From NCBI GenBank assembly GCA_028684065.1, contig JAQUGO010000009.1, positions 1-64,000 of the forward strand: 64,000 nt of DNA. Reading direction: 5' to 3'. This stretch comes from Sulfurospirillaceae bacterium. Its GTDB lineage: Bacteria > Campylobacterota > Campylobacteria > Campylobacterales > Sulfurospirillaceae. Positions 19,633 through 27,993 of this stretch are shown here, piece by piece. Numbering within the stretch: the stretch's first letter is position 1; the number at the start of each line of letters is the position of its first letter. The notes under the pieces were generated by a model. The model saw only the letters and a program-made list of their open reading frames with translations, searched no databases and was not told where the DNA came from. Made by a program: the position numbers and the translations under genes.

Positions 19633-19653
19633 GTTTGGGCTATAAGCCCAAAC
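19633..19653. terminator. Bidirectional hairpin between the DUF465 gene and magIII
   Basis: GTTTGGGCT-ATA-AGCCCAAAC gives a nine-base-pair stem with a three-base loop, between two convergent genes and overlapping the last bases of magIII. T-rich DNA follows on the plus strand about ten bases later. Confidence 0.6.
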
Positions 19654-20302
19654 TCTCACTTTCTACTTTTTTCCCTCGGCTATTTTCTTTACAAAATTCT
19701 ACAATCTTACCATGAAACCTAGCATAAACTTCATTGAATTCCTTTTCATGCCCATAAACACTAACCAAGCGATGCTGATTTGCCACAATACCTTCAACCA
19801 TCCACTCTTGCAATGCATCATACGACTCAAATTGGTATCCAAAGGACTCCAATAATCTAGCCGTATAAGCATCCACTACCATTGCCTCTTTACCACATGC
19901 ATAGCAAAGGATTGAATCTGCACTCTCAGGACCAATACCTTTTTGTTCTAATAGCCAATCCCGAGTTACTTCTTCACAAAATAGCTCAAAACTCTTAAAG
20001 TCTTCGAGAATTGCCAAACAAAGTTTTTTAAGGTTGTTTGCTTTCGTATTATAAAACCCACTGGGCTTAATAAACTCTACTAAACGATCAAGTGAACATT
20101 TCGCAATACCTTCAAGGGTCTTAATTCCCGCTACCTCCAAATTGTGTATACTCTGTTCAACCTTTTCCCATTTGCTCTGCTGTGTTAAAACCGCACCCAC
20201 AATAACCCAAAAAGTTTTAGACCGTGGCCACCACAAGACATCTCTTTTTGTTTTAATATAACCCTTCGCTTTCAGAGCGAGTAATAAATCAAAACTATTC
20301 AC
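19640..20302 (-). CDS. 3-methyladenine DNA glycosylase, MagIII type (HhH-GPD)
   Basis: A 220-residue member of the endonuclease III superfamily that should excise alkylated bases such as 3-methyladenine. The helix-hairpin-helix motif is in L-E-Q-K-G-I-G-P-E-S-A-D-S-I-L-C-Y-A, followed by the catalytic Asp in V-V-D-A-Y-T. The four-cysteine iron-sulfur loop of true endonuclease III is absent, as in H. pylori MagIII, and the tail A-R-F-H-G-K-I-V-E-F also matches MagIII. It overlaps ymdB by eight bases and ends the long minus-strand run that begins with yajC. Confidence 0.88.
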   Translation of the reverse strand: MNSFDLLLALKAKGYIKTKRDVLWWPRSKTFWVIVGAVLTQQSKWEKVEQSIHNLEVAGIKTLEGIAKCSLDRLVEFIKPSGFYNTKANNLKKLCLAILEDFKSFELFCEEVTRDWLLEQKGIGPESADSILCYACGKEAMVVDAYTARLLESFGYQFESYDALQEWMVEGIVANQHRLVSVYGHEKEFNEVYARFHGKIVEFCKENSRGKKVESESLGL

Positions 20303-21104
20303 GCAAGGCCTGTTGGGTTAAGACTTCATCTTTATCATCAAAAACTCTTATTTTTTGAGCTTCAAGGCAATGACCATCTTCGATTTCACAAATCACCATT
20401 TGCAATATTTTTCTGCATTTTTTTGGAATATCAAGTGAAGCAGGAAGTCCTGTTAAAAAACGCTTAAGTGGTGCTTCTTTTGCCATGCCAATAACATTAT
20501 CACGACATCCACTTAGTCCCACATCGCTGACATAACATGTTCCATTTTCAATCAATAAATCATCTGTTCCAACATGTGTATGAGTTCCAAATATAGCACT
20601 CACCTGCCCTTTAAGCATCATATGAAGCGCTCGTTTTTCCGATGTTGCCTCTGCGTGAAAGTCAATCACAATGGTACTAATACCCTGTTCTTGTAACCCT
20701 TTAACTGCTTTTTGAACGGCAATAAAAGGGTTATCCACCATAGGCATACTAAAATGGCCCATTACGTTAATCACGGCAATATCCGTACCCTTTACATGTA
20801 AGATACCAAGTCCTCGCCCTGGCACCCCTTCTGGATAGTTAAGAGGTCTTAAAATTGGTAGTGTATCGAGTAATGGAATAATCTCTTTTTTATCCCACGA
20901 ATGATTGCCACCTGTGAGCATATCGACCCCACATTTCAAAAGCTCTTTGGCATTTTCAGTATTTAAGCCAAAACCATGACTTGCATTTTCACCATTGGCT
21001 ATCACAATATCTAAGGCATATTGCATTTTGAGTTTTTTAAGGTGTGACTCCAACATCATACGTCCTGGTTTTCCTACAATGTCCCCAATAAATCCAATTT
21101 TCAT
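20295..21104 (-). CDS. YmdB family metallophosphoesterase (TIGR00282)
   Basis: A 269-residue calcineurin-like phosphoesterase. The dimetal ligands are visible in G-F-I-G-D-I-V-G-K-P-G-R, N-G-E-N-A-S-H-G-F-G, G-G-N-H-S-W-D-K, D-F-H-A-E-A-T-S-E-K and G-T-H-T-H-V-G-T-D-D, all in family order. Bacillus YmdB hydrolyses cyclic nucleotides in vitro and affects biofilm and RNA decay; the role here is unknown. The ATG overlaps the mfd stop by four bases (ATGA). Confidence 0.9.
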   Translation of the reverse strand: MKIGFIGDIVGKPGRMMLESHLKKLKMQYALDIVIANGENASHGFGLNTENAKELLKCGVDMLTGGNHSWDKKEIIPLLDTLPILRPLNYPEGVPGRGLGILHVKGTDIAVINVMGHFSMPMVDNPFIAVQKAVKGLQEQGISTIVIDFHAEATSEKRALHMMLKGQVSAIFGTHTHVGTDDLLIENGTCYVSDVGLSGCRDNVIGMAKEAPLKRFLTGLPASLDIPKKCRKILQMVICEIEDGHCLEAQKIRVFDDKDEVLTQQALRE

Positions 21105-24073
21105 TTTTTATCCCTCAACTGTGCCAAAACAGTAGCGATTATGTCATCATCATCTTTACTACGCGACATGAGCGTTATTTTTTTATCGCCTTCATATTTT
21201 ATAGTAATATTTTGCCCATAATTTGAAATCAATACAATACCTTTGCATGTTGCTAAAATTTTAATCTGTATTAGTTCTAAAAATTGTTTGGTTGGCATAT
21301 CGATTTTTCCAAATCGATCGACCATCTCTGCTTCTATTTCTAAGACATCTTGTACACTTTCGCATTTGCTTAAACGTCTGTATAACTCTAAGCGAATACG
21401 GTCTTCAGGAATATAAGAATCACTAATAAAAGCACTAATAGAGAGTTTTATATCCACTTCTTTAGAAGCAATTGGTGCCTTTCCCAAAAGTACATTGATC
21501 GCATCTTCTAGCATTTTGAGGTAAAGTGAATAACCAATATTTTTAATATGCCCACTTTGAGCCTCTCCAACCAAGTTTCCTCCACCTCTAATTTCCAAAT
21601 CATGGTACGCTAAAATAGAGCCACTTCCTAAAAAGGAATTTGCCTCAAGTGCAATTAAACGTTTTTTTGCAGACTCGCTGAGTTCTTCTTTATCTTTCAC
21701 CAAATAATAGCAATAGCCTTGACGACGGGAGCGCCCTACGCGGCCTCTTAGTTGGTGTAAATCCGCCATTCCAAAATAATCAGCGGCATCAATGATAATC
21801 GTATTGACATTAGGGATATGAATACCAGATTCTATGATGGACGTACTTAAAAGAACATCATACGCTTTTTCTTCAAACTGTAACATCTCTTTTTCGGTTA
21901 TAGTTGCACTGATTTCGGAGTGTAATGTAAGAATGCGCAAATGTGGCATCATAGAGAGAAGTTCTTTTTTCTTCGCTTCAATAGTAGCGATACGATTATG
22001 TACAAAAAAGACTTGCCCACCACGCCTTGTTTCACGTAAAATAGCCTCTTTAATCACCTTTTCATCATACTCTTTCACAAAGGTTCGTACATCTTCACGA
22101 TCATTTGGAGGTGTAAGCAATTGTGAATACTGTTTAATGGAACTCAGCGCCATATTAAGACTTCGAGGAATGGGTGTAGCACTCATCGAGAGGATATGAA
22201 CATTTTCACGTAAGTTCTTAAGTTTTTCTTTTTGTTTGACACCAAATTTATGCTCTTCATCCAAAACCACTAAGGCGGGATTATGCAAAGGCACATCAAA
22301 AAGAGCATGTGTTCCAACACACACTTTAAGCACCCCATTTTGTAAATCATGCAAAATAGCACTTTTTTGCTTTGCAGGTGTAAATCGGTCTAATTGCTCT
22401 ACACGAATATTGTACTTGGCAAAACGCTCTTGTAAGCTTTTGTAGTGTTGGGAACAGAGTAATGTCGTAGGGGCGATTAAAATCGCTTGGAAGCCATTAT
22501 AGACCGTTGCAAAGATAGCATTCATAGCCACTTCTGTTTTTCCAAAGCCAACATCACCACTTAAAAGTCTATCCATCATTTTTCCACTTGAAAAATCATG
22601 CAAAATTTCTTGCACTACTCTTTTTTGATCATCCGTATAGGCAAAACCTGCATCATTTTCAAACGTCTCAACGACATCAAAAGGAATTTTTATCTGCATA
22701 GCATCCACCATCTCGCGCTTGGCTGCAATGGCGATAATCTCACTAGCAATTTCTAATAAACGCTCCCGTGTCTTAGCCTTAAGCTTTTGGAAACTTCCTT
22801 TTCCAAGCCTATCGACGCTGACCATGCCACCACTTTCCCCAATGTATCGCTCAATGACATGTAGATTTTCAACAGGTAATAAAAGCCTATCATCCCCTAA
22901 ATACTCAATAACAACAAAATCTTTCGTGGCGCCTAAAACTGTCGTATTCAGCAAACCTTTAAAAATACCAATACCATAATGTTCATGAACGACATAATCG
23001 CCATTTTTAAGTTCATCGAGAATAATGCTTAATCGTCGTGGCTTCACTTTAGGAATAGGTTTATTCAGTGAATATAAAATTTCATCACTACTCATCAGAT
23101 TGATAATTAAATCGCTCTTTACGTAGGTATATGACAAATCATCTAGCTCTGCAATTTTCATTAAAACATCGTTTTTGGCTAATATTTTAATTTTTTTGTG
23201 TTGATGCACACTGAGGAAACTTTTGATATTGCTAGTTTGAATCTCTTTATAAACTTTGGCTTCGGGTAAAATAGGAAGCAATGAAAGCTTTTGCACGTCG
23301 GAAGTTTCTAAAAAATCAAGCTCTGGTATTTCCAAAGAGGCATCAAGGGAAAGGTACGTTTTAAAAGTATCAAGATACTTTTTAGCATAATTACCCAAAG
23401 CCCACAAGCCAAGAGAATGTATATCTTTATTGAAACTATCACTTTTAAGACGTAGGACTTCTGTTTCAATCGTTTCATAGTGTTGCTGGTCTAAAGCAAA
23501 AAGTGCTGGAAAAAGTTCAACATTTTCTAACTCTTCTTGGATACTCTTTTGCGTTTGAACATCAAAATAGCGAATACTTTCTACCTCATCATCAAACAAA
23601 CTGACGCGAATGGCATGCGGTGTGTTGGGAGGATAAATATCTACAATATCGCCTCGAACGGATATTTCGCCAGGGGCCTGCACGACATCACTACTATGGT
23701 ACCCCCAATAAAACATTTGCTCTTTAAACTCTATTTGGGGTAAACGCATCCCAAATTCAATTATTTTTGTCGTGAAAAGCTCTTCATTAGGAAGAGGTGT
23801 TAAGAGTGTACGAAGAGGTACAATGAGAATTTTTTTAGTTGAATGGTCTTTATAAAAAGCATGCAATGTCCGTAAAAGCTCACTCATTTCTTCGTTAAAA
23901 GAGAGTAAATCATCACCTTCTCTTGCTCTAAGATCGGGTAATACATAACTTTTTTTGCCTAAAAACAAAGCTACTTGAGAGGCTAAAAAAGCCTCTTTAT
24001 CATTTAAAACACCTAAAAGTTGAAGCGTATTATTTTTATCATTAAAAAATTCATAACAGGAAGCTTGTATCAG
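21101..24073 (-). CDS. mfd: Transcription-repair coupling factor Mfd
   Basis: Mfd removes stalled RNA polymerase from lesions and recruits UvrA. It has a UvrB-like N-terminal module, the RNA polymerase-binding domain (D-Y-V-V-H-E-H-Y-G-I-G-I-F-K-G), a RecG-like translocase with Walker A GDVGFGKT, D-E-E-H and Q-L-R-G-R-V-G-R-S, and a C-terminal TRCF domain. The first ATG/GTG/TTG-type codon is TTG 23968, but it lacks a ribosome binding site and cuts into the N-terminal module. The frame stays open to CTG 24071-24073, which has AAGGG seven bases before it and begins L-I-Q-A-S-C-Y-E-F-F, so I start there (990 residues). Confidence 0.9.
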   Translation of the reverse strand: MIQASCYEFFNDKNNTLQLLGVLNDKEAFLASQVALFLGKKSYVLPDLRAREGDDLLSFNEEMSELLRTLHAFYKDHSTKKILIVPLRTLLTPLPNEELFTTKIIEFGMRLPQIEFKEQMFYWGYHSSDVVQAPGEISVRGDIVDIYPPNTPHAIRVSLFDDEVESIRYFDVQTQKSIQEELENVELFPALFALDQQHYETIETEVLRLKSDSFNKDIHSLGLWALGNYAKKYLDTFKTYLSLDASLEIPELDFLETSDVQKLSLLPILPEAKVYKEIQTSNIKSFLSVHQHKKIKILAKNDVLMKIAELDDLSYTYVKSDLIINLMSSDEILYSLNKPIPKVKPRRLSIILDELKNGDYVVHEHYGIGIFKGLLNTTVLGATKDFVVIEYLGDDRLLLPVENLHVIERYIGESGGMVSVDRLGKGSFQKLKAKTRERLLEIASEIIAIAAKREMVDAMQIKIPFDVVETFENDAGFAYTDDQKRVVQEILHDFSSGKMMDRLLSGDVGFGKTEVAMNAIFATVYNGFQAILIAPTTLLCSQHYKSLQERFAKYNIRVEQLDRFTPAKQKSAILHDLQNGVLKVCVGTHALFDVPLHNPALVVLDEEHKFGVKQKEKLKNLRENVHILSMSATPIPRSLNMALSSIKQYSQLLTPPNDREDVRTFVKEYDEKVIKEAILRETRRGGQVFFVHNRIATIEAKKKELLSMMPHLRILTLHSEISATITEKEMLQFEEKAYDVLLSTSIIESGIHIPNVNTIIIDAADYFGMADLHQLRGRVGRSRRQGYCYYLVKDKEELSESAKKRLIALEANSFLGSGSILAYHDLEIRGGGNLVGEAQSGHIKNIGYSLYLKMLEDAINVLLGKAPIASKEVDIKLSISAFISDSYIPEDRIRLELYRRLSKCESVQDVLEIEAEMVDRFGKIDMPTKQFLELIQIKILATCKGIVLISNYGQNITIKYEGDKKITLMSRSKDDDDIIATVLAQLRDKK

Positions 24074-24085
24074 ATGAAATCCCTT

Positions 24086-24466
24086 TTAATTTTCGTAACT
24101 CAAAAGTTGATTATCAACTTTAATTTTGCTCTCGCCCTCGAAAATCGCTTTGGCTTCAATGACCAATTCTTTAGAAATGACTTTTCCTAAAAACTTACCA
24201 CCCTCAAGGACTTCAACATTATCACAATTAGCACTACCTTCAAATAAACCATTAATAATCAAACGACTAGCATTGATTTCACCGCTTATATGACCCTGTT
24301 TTCCAATAGTAACAATACTCTCAGAGATAATTTTACCAACAATCTCACCATCAACATGTAACCGTGTTTGGCAATTAAAAATACCTTCTACTTTAGCACC
24401 ACTTGCTACGATGGTAGTTTCGGAAGAGGGTATTGCGCATTGATCAGCTTTATTAAAGATTCCCAT
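24086..24466 (-). CDS. ccmA: Bactofilin CcmA (cell-shape cytoskeletal protein)
   Basis: A 126-residue bactofilin: a short polar N-terminal tail, then a right-handed beta-helix of repeating short strands (G-E-I-V-G-K-I, G-H-I-S-G-E-I-N-A, G-L-F-E-G-S-A), then a short tail. In Helicobacter CcmA polymers organise peptidoglycan hydrolases to set helical curvature. The gene overlaps the 3' end of the M23 peptidase gene by 61 bases in another frame; AAGGAG precedes the ATG. Its stop (TAA 24086-24088) lies next to the mfd ribosome binding site. The mfd-ccmA-csd-folC order matches H. pylori HP1541-HP1545 (from memory). Confidence 0.9.
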   Translation of the reverse strand: MGIFNKADQCAIPSSETTIVASGAKVEGIFNCQTRLHVDGEIVGKIISESIVTIGKQGHISGEINASRLIINGLFEGSANCDNVEVLEGGKFLGKVISKELVIEAKAIFEGESKIKVDNQLLSYEN

Positions 24467-25305
24467 GTGACTCGTTTCTCCTTTTTAAATATTGTAATAA
24501 AATTTGAACCCTTCCAATTAACAAATGTTTCTGGGTCCAATGAACGTCCTATAAACTTTACTTCGTAATGCAAATGTGGTCCTGTTGACATACCGCTGTT
24601 TCCAGAGTAAGCAATCAAATCACCTTTTTTGACAAATTGACCTTCTTTAACCACACGTCTATTTTGTAAATGAGCATAACTACTTTCAAAACCATAATTA
24701 TGACTTAAAGATACGACATTACCATAACCACTATTTTGATTGTACTCGGTAAATTTCACAACACCATCTGCTGGAGCTAAGATAGGCGTACCCGGATTGG
24801 CTCTCAAATCAAGGCCAGTATGAAACTCTTTGCGTTTTAAAATAGGATTTTCTCGCCAACCAAATTTCGAGGTAACTTCACTATAGGCCATTACATCACC
24901 ACTAGGAATATTATCAAAAAAGATTTTCTGCTGTACAATAGTTAAGTCAATTTCATCTAACCTAGTATCGATAGTGTCTTCTTCATTGGTTCTAAGACCT
25001 ACCATCTCTTCCATACTAGCAATTTTATCTCTAATATTTTCATATTCTTGTGCTTTTTCTGAAATTTTTGTCTGTAACTCTTCATTTTGAATTAAAAGAG
25101 TATTGCGCTCTTGAATGGCAACTTCTTTTTTTGCATCTAGTGTGGAAACTTCTTTAACCAAAAACGAAATGACTATGCTTCCTATAACAATCACTAAAAT
25201 GACAAACAATGTAAAATAAACTAAAAACTTCTTAATCAGCTGATGTAATAAAAAATGACGTGAACCATTAACATCAGAAATAGTAACTGTAAACTTATTT
25301 TTCAC
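24406..25305 (-). CDS. M23 family peptidoglycan endopeptidase, Csd1/Csd2-like
   Basis: A 299-residue inner-membrane protein: a basic N-terminus, one membrane helix at about residues 30-52, a coiled coil at about 60-100, and a C-terminal LytM/M23 domain. Zinc ligands are in E-F-H-T-G-L-D and H-L-H-Y-E-V, so it looks catalytically complete. It should trim peptide crosslinks to create cell curvature together with CcmA. H. pylori has two such genes (csd1, csd2) at this site; here there is one. It overlaps folC by 11 bases and ccmA by 61. Confidence 0.9.
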   Translation of the reverse strand: MKNKFTVTISDVNGSRHFLLHQLIKKFLVYFTLFVILVIVIGSIVISFLVKEVSTLDAKKEVAIQERNTLLIQNEELQTKISEKAQEYENIRDKIASMEEMVGLRTNEEDTIDTRLDEIDLTIVQQKIFFDNIPSGDVMAYSEVTSKFGWRENPILKRKEFHTGLDLRANPGTPILAPADGVVKFTEYNQNSGYGNVVSLSHNYGFESSYAHLQNRRVVKEGQFVKKGDLIAYSGNSGMSTGPHLHYEVKFIGRSLDPETFVNWKGSNFITIFKKEKRVTWESLIKLINAQYPLPKLPS

Positions 25306-26449
25306 ATCTACCCTTTAAAAATGCTTCAACAACAGAGAATGAACCAAAGATCAAATACTCTTTATCCTCTTTTATATCACTAAAAATATCTACTTTAATA
25401 CCCAAAGCGATAGCCGTTTCTTTTAATGCCTCTTGATTCACTGCCCTTGGGCTTTCAATTGCAATTATTTCCAGTGAGAGAAGTATAGGTTTTAAAACGC
25501 TCAAAATTTCATTATACGCTTTATCACTGTAACAATTGTAGACTAATATAACTTTTTTTTCGCCAAAATGCTTTACTAATGCATGAGCAGCCATGACATT
25601 GTGTCCTACATCAATGGTAACATTCTGTAAAAAACGTTGACACCGACCTTGCAATAAGGGTGCATCAAAATTTTGCAATACAATATCATACCCAAGAACC
25701 GTTAATGCACAAAGGGCTGCTTTAAAATTTTCTCCTAAAAAAGAGGAATAACCATGCTGTAATACAAAAAGGTCTATTTCTTTTTCTTTTTTTGCATCAA
25801 AAAAACCATCAACATAAAAAATTTTTTTGTCTATTTCACATGCTTTTTGAAGTGCTAGACCATACACTTCAGCTTCATATTGTTTTGCTAACACAAAATT
25901 TGTTGTGACACTATTCAGTTTTGTTTGAGTAATAGCTCCAATAGTATTGCCTAAAAAAGCCTGATGGTCATAGCCAATAGGTGTGATTAGAGAGAGTATT
26001 TTAGGAAAAACTGTTGTTGCATCATACTCACCTCCCATGCCAGCTTCCAAAACAACATAATCACAGTGCTCACTAAAAATGACCATCGCTAATAATGTCG
26101 TGTATTCAAAATAAGAGAGTGATTGAGAATCTTCATGGCTCAGCCAAATCATTAATTGCATGTGTGCATTTTCTAAGGAAAAATGGCTTACATCCTTACC
26201 ATCTACCCAAATGCGTTCATTAAATGTCATAATATGAGGAGAGGTATAATGGCCGACATGTAAGCCTTGTTGATAAAGCATATGGGCAAGAAACCGTCCT
26301 GTTGTTCCTTTGCCATTAGTGCCTACAACTTGAATTATTTTGGGTATTTTTAGATGATGCGTTATACTTGCATAAATTTTAGGCATACGTTTTGTATCTA
26401 TCACATCGTAAAAAAGTGGCTTATTGGCTAAAAAATCAAAAAGTGACAT
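25295..26449 (-). CDS. folC: Folylpolyglutamate synthase / dihydrofolate synthase FolC
   Basis: FolC adds glutamate to dihydropteroate and to folates. The 384-residue Mur-ligase-like enzyme has the P-loop V-V-G-T-N-G-K-G-T-T near residues 42-51, Y-T-S-P-H-I-M-T-F-N-E-R-I, V-L-E-A-G-M-G-G-E-Y-D-A-T and the C-terminal D-V-G-H-N-V-M-A-A segment. It is slightly shorter than E. coli FolC (about 420), which is usual in the phylum. Its ATG shares one base with the stop of the GGDEF gene (TAATG), so the two are translationally coupled. Confidence 0.94.
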   Translation of the reverse strand: MSLFDFLANKPLFYDVIDTKRMPKIYASITHHLKIPKIIQVVGTNGKGTTGRFLAHMLYQQGLHVGHYTSPHIMTFNERIWVDGKDVSHFSLENAHMQLMIWLSHEDSQSLSYFEYTTLLAMVIFSEHCDYVVLEAGMGGEYDATTVFPKILSLITPIGYDHQAFLGNTIGAITQTKLNSVTTNFVLAKQYEAEVYGLALQKACEIDKKIFYVDGFFDAKKEKEIDLFVLQHGYSSFLGENFKAALCALTVLGYDIVLQNFDAPLLQGRCQRFLQNVTIDVGHNVMAAHALVKHFGEKKVILVYNCYSDKAYNEILSVLKPILLSLEIIAIESPRAVNQEALKETAIALGIKVDIFSDIKEDKEYLIFGSFSVVEAFLKGRCEK

Positions 26450-27993
26450 TAGGCAGAGGGCATTACTCGATTTCGTCCCGCCTCTTTTGCTTTATACAAA
26501 AGTGCATCTGCCGCGCTTACAGTTTCTTCCCCACTCTTATGACCTGAGCGTTGGGCAAGACCGCTACTGATTGTTAAATTAATACGTTCATTTTTATATA
26601 AAAATTTAAATTGCTCTATAATGGAACGAATTTTATCCGCAAAATGAATTCCTTGTGCTAAATCTGTACTCGGCAAAATCACTAAAAATTCTTCTCCACC
26701 ATAACGCCCTGCAAAATCAACTTGACGGATATACTTACGTAAAATCTTACCAACCGTTGAGAGAATAACATCACCTGCTTCATGTCCATACGTATCATTA
26801 ACCATTTTAAAATGGTCAATATCAATAAAACAGAGTGTGTAATCTATTTTATATCGATTATACGCATCTTCAACACGAGCTAGTTCATCAACCAGTGCTC
26901 TTTTGGTAGCAACATGCGTTAAATAATCCTCTTTAACTTCTTGTTTTGCAACCATTAAAGCGGATTCTAATTTATTGATACGACTTTGCAATTTTCCAAT
27001 CGTCTCTTGGTTGGCAGACATCTTTTCACTTAAGGATCTTGTCTCATTTTCTAAAGATGAGGCAATATGCAATAGCTTGACTTGAACTGATTCAAAACTA
27101 TCTTGTGAAAAATCAATTTTTTGAAGGTCAGCTTTAATCTCTTTCACTTGATCATGACTGAAGTTACTACTATTGATGAGATCAATAATTTTTTTATTAA
27201 TCTCATCTAAAATTTTATCAAGAGTGGCTACTTTTTTTTGCACTTCTGCTTTATCTAAGGCAATGCGTTTTGAAATCAACTGTTTAATCTCTTTTTGAAG
27301 ACCTTGAGAATTTAATGATTCGGGTGAATTACGCAACTCATAGCTAATATTAGCTAATTCATCATTCATACCTGAAGCAATAGAAGGGACTAAAGATGCA
27401 ATAATTAAGGGGGCAAGAATTTTGTAAGCCTCTAAACTGCTATCTTTCCCAAGAATTTTCAGAATATCTCGAACCATCATTTCTAAGTCATCTTTATTAA
27501 TAGAGCCATATTCATCTAGTTTTTTAAGATAGTTATCATCATAATTTGAAATAAAATCAAACCATTTTTCTTTAACCAAATCTATAGACTGTAAATTTTG
27601 ATGAAAATCAAGTCGTTCGATTGAAGCGTGGGCTAAATTACTCGCTTTTGCATCATGCAAAAGAGAAATGGCTTGTAATACTCTCTTAGATAGGATGACT
27701 AAAGAATTAAGCATTTTGCTTGCATCTCCCTCATTGGCGCGGTTAAGTTTCGCTACGAAAAAAGAGAGCAACTCATCAATGCTACTAACGTTAAAACGTT
27801 TTAAATCACTTGCAATGGAAGGATCCAGTTTTTTAATATATTTATCAACTTTTTGGCAATCTTCAACAATGACACCTTTTTGTTTAGCCACTTTGCAAAA
27901 TACTTTGGCATAATTATCGGGTGTTAAATTAAGGTGCTCCGCCTTGATCATTTCCAAACTATCGCGTATTATTTCATTGATTGTTGTTGCCAT
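26449..27993 (-). CDS. Diguanylate cyclase with long helical N-terminal region
   Basis: A 514-residue protein that should make cyclic di-GMP. The C-terminal GGDEF domain (about 355-510) has the active motif GGEEF at 432-436 and an RxxD inhibitory site (RQVD, 423-426) exactly five residues before it, so product inhibition is expected. The first 350 residues are helical, with strong coiled coil at about 235-350; no known sensor domain or membrane segment is visible. It lies between lptE (20-base overlap) and folC (TAATG) in a housekeeping operon, so its expression is tied to envelope and folate genes. Confidence 0.92.
   Translation of the reverse strand: MATTINEIIRDSLEMIKAEHLNLTPDNYAKVFCKVAKQKGVIVEDCQKVDKYIKKLDPSIASDLKRFNVSSIDELLSFFVAKLNRANEGDASKMLNSLVILSKRVLQAISLLHDAKASNLAHASIERLDFHQNLQSIDLVKEKWFDFISNYDDNYLKKLDEYGSINKDDLEMMVRDILKILGKDSSLEAYKILAPLIIASLVPSIASGMNDELANISYELRNSPESLNSQGLQKEIKQLISKRIALDKAEVQKKVATLDKILDEINKKIIDLINSSNFSHDQVKEIKADLQKIDFSQDSFESVQVKLLHIASSLENETRSLSEKMSANQETIGKLQSRINKLESALMVAKQEVKEDYLTHVATKRALVDELARVEDAYNRYKIDYTLCFIDIDHFKMVNDTYGHEAGDVILSTVGKILRKYIRQVDFAGRYGGEEFLVILPSTDLAQGIHFADKIRSIIEQFKFLYKNERINLTISSGLAQRSGHKSGEETVSAADALLYKAKEAGRNRVMPSA

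Follow-up and report, generated by a model that had tools for sequence, protein, structure and literature searches.

The window, a stretch of 64,000 nt from a Sulfurospirillaceae bacterium (contig JAQUGO010000009.1, assembly GCA_028684065.1), carries at 19640-27993 seven minus-strand genes, running from a GGDEF protein gene to an HhH-GPD base-excision repair gene. They form a chain of overlaps, with lengths that rest on longest-ORF starts, in which the 12 nt between the bactofilin gene and mfd constitute the sole gap. In 5′ to 3′ order on the coding strand, the features of the locus are:

26449..27993, minus strand: GGDEF protein gene (PF00990); 1-nt overlap with the next gene
25295..26449, minus strand: Mur-ligase-like gene (PF08245 barely above the cut-off, PF02875 below it), which we take to be folC-like; 11-nt overlap with the M23 gene
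24406..25305, minus strand: M23 peptidase gene (PF01551); 61-nt overlap with the bactofilin gene
24086..24466, minus strand: bactofilin gene (PF04519); stop in frame with mfd, 12 nt from the CTG
24081..24085, minus strand: Shine-Dalgarno (SD)-like AAGGG; 7 nt (24080-24074) between it and the CTG
24071..24073, minus strand: probable CTG start codon of mfd, aligned with NTG in relatives (33/33 readable genomes of three genera; CTG in 14)
23966..23968, minus strand: TTG, the first standard in-frame start (codon 36), rejected as the mfd start
21101..24073, minus strand: mfd coding sequence read from the CTG, 990 codons plus stop (TIGR00580 and domains)
20295..21104, minus strand: YmdB-like phosphoesterase gene (PF13277); 4-nt overlap between its ATG and the mfd stop
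19640..20302, minus strand: HhH-GPD base-excision repair gene (PF00730); 8-nt overlap with the ymdB-like gene

The product of mfd scores 1031.7 bits against the equivalog profile TIGR00580 (cut-off 800). A profile search recovers UvrB_inter, CarD_TRCF_RID, DEAD, Helicase_C and TRCF, with the UvrB-like, RNAP-interaction, DEAD/Helicase_C and TRCF domains all present in the window Mfd. The stop codon of the gene lies at 21101-21103 on the minus strand, and upstream its frame is open as far as TAA 24088-24086, which is the bactofilin stop. A sequence-only reading of this DNA had proposed that mfd starts with CTG 24073, 35 codons upstream of TTG 23968, noting that the frame is open between the two without ATG, GTG or another TTG, that the codon after the CTG is ATA, that AAGGG lies exactly seven bases 5′ of the CTG, and that the TTG lacks a ribosome binding site. 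Each of these observations agrees with the sequence: codons 2-35 hold no standard start, so that none would yield the full-length product, and a scan for a set of SD-like motifs at 4-10 nt upstream of TTG 23968 came up empty. The usual gene-finder setting admits only ATG, GTG and TTG, and gene finders limited to these codons would shorten the window Mfd by 35 residues.

A scan of a genome collection yielded 61 mfd loci, named Sulfurospirillum genomes among them. The mfd genes of S. diekertiae (L012) and S. cavolei (L028) start with TTG, and that of L005, whose protein is 92% identical to the window Mfd, starts with CTG; L005 is apparently the same record as L066 and was counted once. Whole-genome searches of the genus and family with 5′ stretches covered 44 genomes and left 41 with a readable start, G016 being dropped for lack of a match and G023/L086 and G040 because their 5′ end is missing. 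Across three genera with 33 readable genomes, the aligned start position holds NTG only, namely CTG in 14, TTG in 17 and ATG in two. By genus, the counts are CTG 3, TTG 17 and ATG 2 in that of the window (22 readable of 24 searched), CTG in 10/10 of a second genus and CTG in the single genome of a third. The fourth and fifth genera begin mfd with TTG one codon later (5/5 readable of six searched, and 3/3, respectively), and the position-1 codon of these eight genomes is AGT or AAA (two each), AAG, GAT, CTT or TAA. As this codon is arbitrary in genomes whose start is shifted by one codon, the NTG of the three genera is not a by-product of neighboring sequence. An SD-like motif precedes the CTG by 6-9 nt in all 14 CTG genomes, reduced to GAG in L122 and to GAGG in L091. 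One draft assembly, L087 (G021), has an mfd match that begins at residue 169 even though that locus also contains the 5′ part and its TTG start; hence its frame seems to be broken.

The alignment of start regions thus supports the proposed start, and mfd of this bacterium very probably begins at the rare codon CTG. The sequence-only reading had also raised the prospect that related strains carry ATG at this position, as two congeners indeed do, and that a base error in the assembly conceals a standard codon. While a single base change would suffice to turn the CTG into TTG or ATG, the same CTG recurs in 13 other genomes, one per species, the nearest being 92% identical in protein, and such an error is therefore practically excluded.

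A second way of dispensing with the CTG is a shortened Mfd translated from TTG 23968, which is, after all, the first standard start in the frame. Beyond its want of an SD-like motif, the window is alone among the 41 family genomes in having a standard start at codon 36. A comparison of the window with L066 gives a dN/dS of 0.11 for codons 2-35 (four synonymous and two other changes) and of 0.07 for codons 36-140; though the changes are few, this indicates that codons 2-35 evolve as protein, under purifying selection. An AlphaFold model of residues 1-300, built with 24 sequences, has a mean pLDDT of 89.7, with 10-residue means of 81-95 across residues 1-40, and places a helix at 2-11, a strand at 19-22 and a helix at 25-37. 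It matches the E. coli Mfd structures 2b2n (Z 18.5, rmsd 3.9, 259 aligned), 3hjh (Z 17.8, rmsd 4.8, 290 aligned) and 2eyq (Z 17.4, rmsd 5.0, 291 aligned), with residue 1 of the window Mfd aligning to residues 23-26 of these. Residues 1-35 accordingly lie within the folded UvrB-like domain, and a start at the TTG would cut it, with loss of helix 2-11, strand 19-22 and most of helix 25-37, much as the sequence-only reading had anticipated for the N-terminal end of that module. We hence regard a start at TTG 23968 as very improbable.

Translation might instead begin one codon later, at ATA 24070, with the CTG being merely part of the leader. ATA can serve, weakly, as a start codon and might act here as a feeble one; moreover, the more distant relatives often start at aligned codon 2 with TTG, GTG or ATG. 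Against this, codon 2 is TTA in 19 of the 33 genomes of the three genera, two CTG genomes included, and TCC in both genomes with ATG at position 1. An ATA start would also have an SD spacing of 10 and would leave the invariance of the CTG at position 1 unexplained. This option, although the least remote of the alternatives, is thus improbable, and we retain CTG 24073 as the start.

In a tree of residues 3-150 of the 41 family proteins, the 17 TTG genomes form a clade that, like the pair with ATG, falls within the group formed by the three genera. Branch support is good for the three genera (97/91) and lower for the TTG clade (89/77) and the clade of the window, L066 and L067 (92/86). The fewest changes of start state on this tree are three, and taking the fourth and fifth genera for the outgroup makes CTG the simplest ancestral state of the three genera.

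Outside the family there were 106 matches, from which 92 loci of the order were tabulated (G063 contributing two) and 14 left out, these being nine matches that begin far inside the protein together with G138, G149, G134, G044 and G060. Taking the nearest standard codon at most 12 codons above or eight below as the start, a rule applied without curation, these loci show ATG in 42, GTG in 29 and TTG in 20, while one (L115) has no standard start. The latter, from another family of the order, carries a CTG (L115:1501-1503) 5 nt after AAGGAGG with no standard start near the 5′ end of mfd, and this CTG falls within the apparent end of an overlapping upstream frame; it probably represents a further case of a CTG-started mfd, of independent origin. 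Weak starts are common for mfd: within the family, ATG starts account for 2/41 mfd genes as against 278/391 first starts in a sample of the window genome. Since the family genomes are related to one another, a Fisher p-value for this contrast does not amount to a true probability. Separately, G063 (C39, C47) has two mfd-like genes with 54% and 52% identity to the window Mfd; as this genome is listed at 8% contamination, they may reflect a mixed bin.

The sample of the window genome comprised 428,693 bases with 391 ORFs of at least 100 codons, and that of a second-genus genome 399,999 bases with 340 ORFs. A CTG preceded by an SD-like motif and lying at least 15 codons above the first standard start was found in 1/391 ORFs of the former, namely mfd, and in 2/340 of the latter, namely mfd and an apparent frame break; the scan is blind to CTG starts that have a standard codon close by. 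The same scan run with seven other codons returned 0 to 2 ORFs each. Lowering the limit to at least 6 codons gave 1/391 and 3/340, respectively, and at a distance of 5 codons the window genome offers one further CTG candidate. On the counts at the limit of at least 15 codons, we reject, for these samples, the idea that CTG starts are common in these genomes. The mfd CTG, the sole such case in the window-genome sample and conserved in relatives, goes beyond coincidence. The apparent frame break (G033 C1 202452-203117, L259) has the semblance of a CTG start and looks like an interrupted gene resembling those of periplasmic substrate-binding proteins.

We then consider the gene upstream, which is identified as a bactofilin in the window alone. 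With a criterion of at least 60 codons, or 40 where the available stretch ends, 39 of the 41 family genomes have a long upstream ORF that stops near the mfd start; L067 and L122 have no such frame by this criterion, and in L077 and L078 a second frame, with its end deeper inside, was disregarded. Relative to the first base of the mfd start, the upstream stop ends at most 16 nt to the 5′ side or 4 nt to the 3′ side in 38/41 genomes, and 38 nt to the 5′ side in L088. The distance in the window (12 nt) lies within the roughly 15 nt considered for such a stop and start. In 15 of 22 window-genus genomes the stop abuts the TTG, and in four of ten second-genus genomes it overlaps the start as CTGA. 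The latter arrangement could have been thought to preserve the CTG, a notion we reject as a general cause since the overlap is limited to those 4/10 genomes and is absent from the window.

In 18/22 window-genus genomes, that of the window among them, mfd shares its frame with the upstream stop, which leaves room for a bactofilin-Mfd fusion made by readthrough of that stop. In each of the nine second-genus genomes (of ten) where an upstream frame was found, however, that frame differs from the one of mfd, and the CTG is kept nevertheless; moreover, a fusion gives no need for a conserved NTG. We therefore consider readthrough highly unlikely. Rather, the position of the upstream stop at the mfd start in 38/41 genomes makes coupled re-initiation likely, and ribosomes ending the bactofilin gene 12 bases upstream of the CTG would probably supply much of the initiation on mfd.

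How the CTG might be read can be outlined from the same features. The ordinary initiator tRNA would decode CUG as formyl-methionine with a mismatch at the first position, and AAGGG seven bases upstream would place the ribosome at the codon. Of 37 tRNA matches, 30 were examined, and the initiator tRNA, by reading of its sequence, has C1:A72, three G-C pairs in the anticodon stem (GGG/CCC) and a CAT anticodon; as these are the usual initiator marks (taken from excerpts of PMC11497404), a changed initiator tRNA is rejected as the cause of a relaxed start choice. A leader structure hiding the start is likewise rejected, two 80-nt window folds being no stabler than shuffled sequences (z 0.79 and 1.48). 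In E. coli reporters, expression from CUG reaches roughly 0.86% of that from AUG (work of Hecht et al. cited in excerpts of PMC11497404), and Mfd output from such a start could therefore be very low unless coupling helps. Termination-reinitiation, as the spacing suggests, likely helps this very weak codon. All told, we hold it highly probable that Mfd is made from CTG 24073 by the ordinary initiator tRNA, with AAGGG positioning the ribosome, probable coupling to the bactofilin gene and a weak start that should yield little Mfd.

The conservation of the codon bears on whether that weakness is itself maintained. In 14/14 CTG genomes, C, T and G are each invariant, and every one of the 18 columns upstream varies. 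Among the 68 all-leucine columns in the 10 of these genomes that have a full-length mfd, the start alone keeps a single codon and the other 67 vary. Just two of the 32 internal leucine columns with C as the first base in the window retain that C throughout, and CTG makes up 9/264 leucine codons over codons 3-140. This control is approximate, since, among the CTN codons, only CTA and CTG still encode leucine after a first-base change from C to T, and one- and two-step changes are hence mixed in it. One might expect frequent drift to TTG; the simplest history shows one such change. Codon invariance thus argues for a constraint on the CTG itself, within the bounds of this approximate leucine control, and lends some support to the suggestion of the sequence-only reading that the CTG could hold Mfd at a low level, which is plausible. 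The presence of the same CTG across three genera suggests that a low rate of Mfd synthesis may be favored. Conversely, the 17 congeners with TTG and the two with ATG signify that a stronger mfd start is tolerated, and they count against selection for the CTG itself. Both the low output and the selection for it are what we infer from these comparisons. More tentatively, the CTG may have been maintained by selection as a throttle ever since a time before the three genera split, whereby only ribosomes finishing the preceding gene would restart often enough at it, keeping Mfd low and tied to the operon; we see this as possible, albeit with more doubt than confidence.

The rarity of CTG starts, also claimed by the sequence-only reading, accords with published figures as well as with the single case among the 391 ORFs: CUG accounts for 0.024% of annotated bacterial starts (Hecht et al. 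2017, as quoted in excerpts of PMC11497404 and PMC11983097). Excerpts of PMC5622118 record four switches into CUG among 68,906 reconstructed ancestral AUG/GUG/UUG starts, arising from AUG in 2/61,358, GUG in 1/5,080 and UUG in 1/2,468. The mfd start shares with these rare annotated cases the codon and the initiator tRNA; what sets it apart from the four switch events is that one CTG is common to three genera. Titles and abstract openings of open-licence PMC papers, among the matches listed, do not name a CTG start of mfd.

The nearest counterpart is rep of the FIB replicon of F-like plasmids, which, according to excerpts of PMC11983097, starts with CTG, is often annotated at a later standard codon and loses replication when the CTG is mutated to CTC. 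Its authors consider that CTG with a good ribosome-binding site sets expression just high enough and that misannotation is frequent. In that plasmid replication gene the start was tested by mutation and N-terminal analysis, whereas mfd, a repair gene on the chromosome, immediately follows another gene and has its CTG supported by genome comparison. Termination-reinitiation by proximity of stop and start was tested in PMC10666635 (as excerpted), and PMC5972666, in the part available, reviews re-initiation mostly in eukaryotes and their viruses. The pairs of PMC10666635 and mfd alike have a stop and a start that overlap or lie a few bases apart, but mfd has CTG or TTG in place of ATG, and its coupling is deduced from the spacing. 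The mfd gene joins a small set of CTG-started genes, in which it stands out as chromosomal and common to three genera. In its codon-invariant CTG it provides a naturally occurring example with which to ask two things: do bacteria retain very weak starts by design, and does CUG become usable through re-initiation downstream of another gene?
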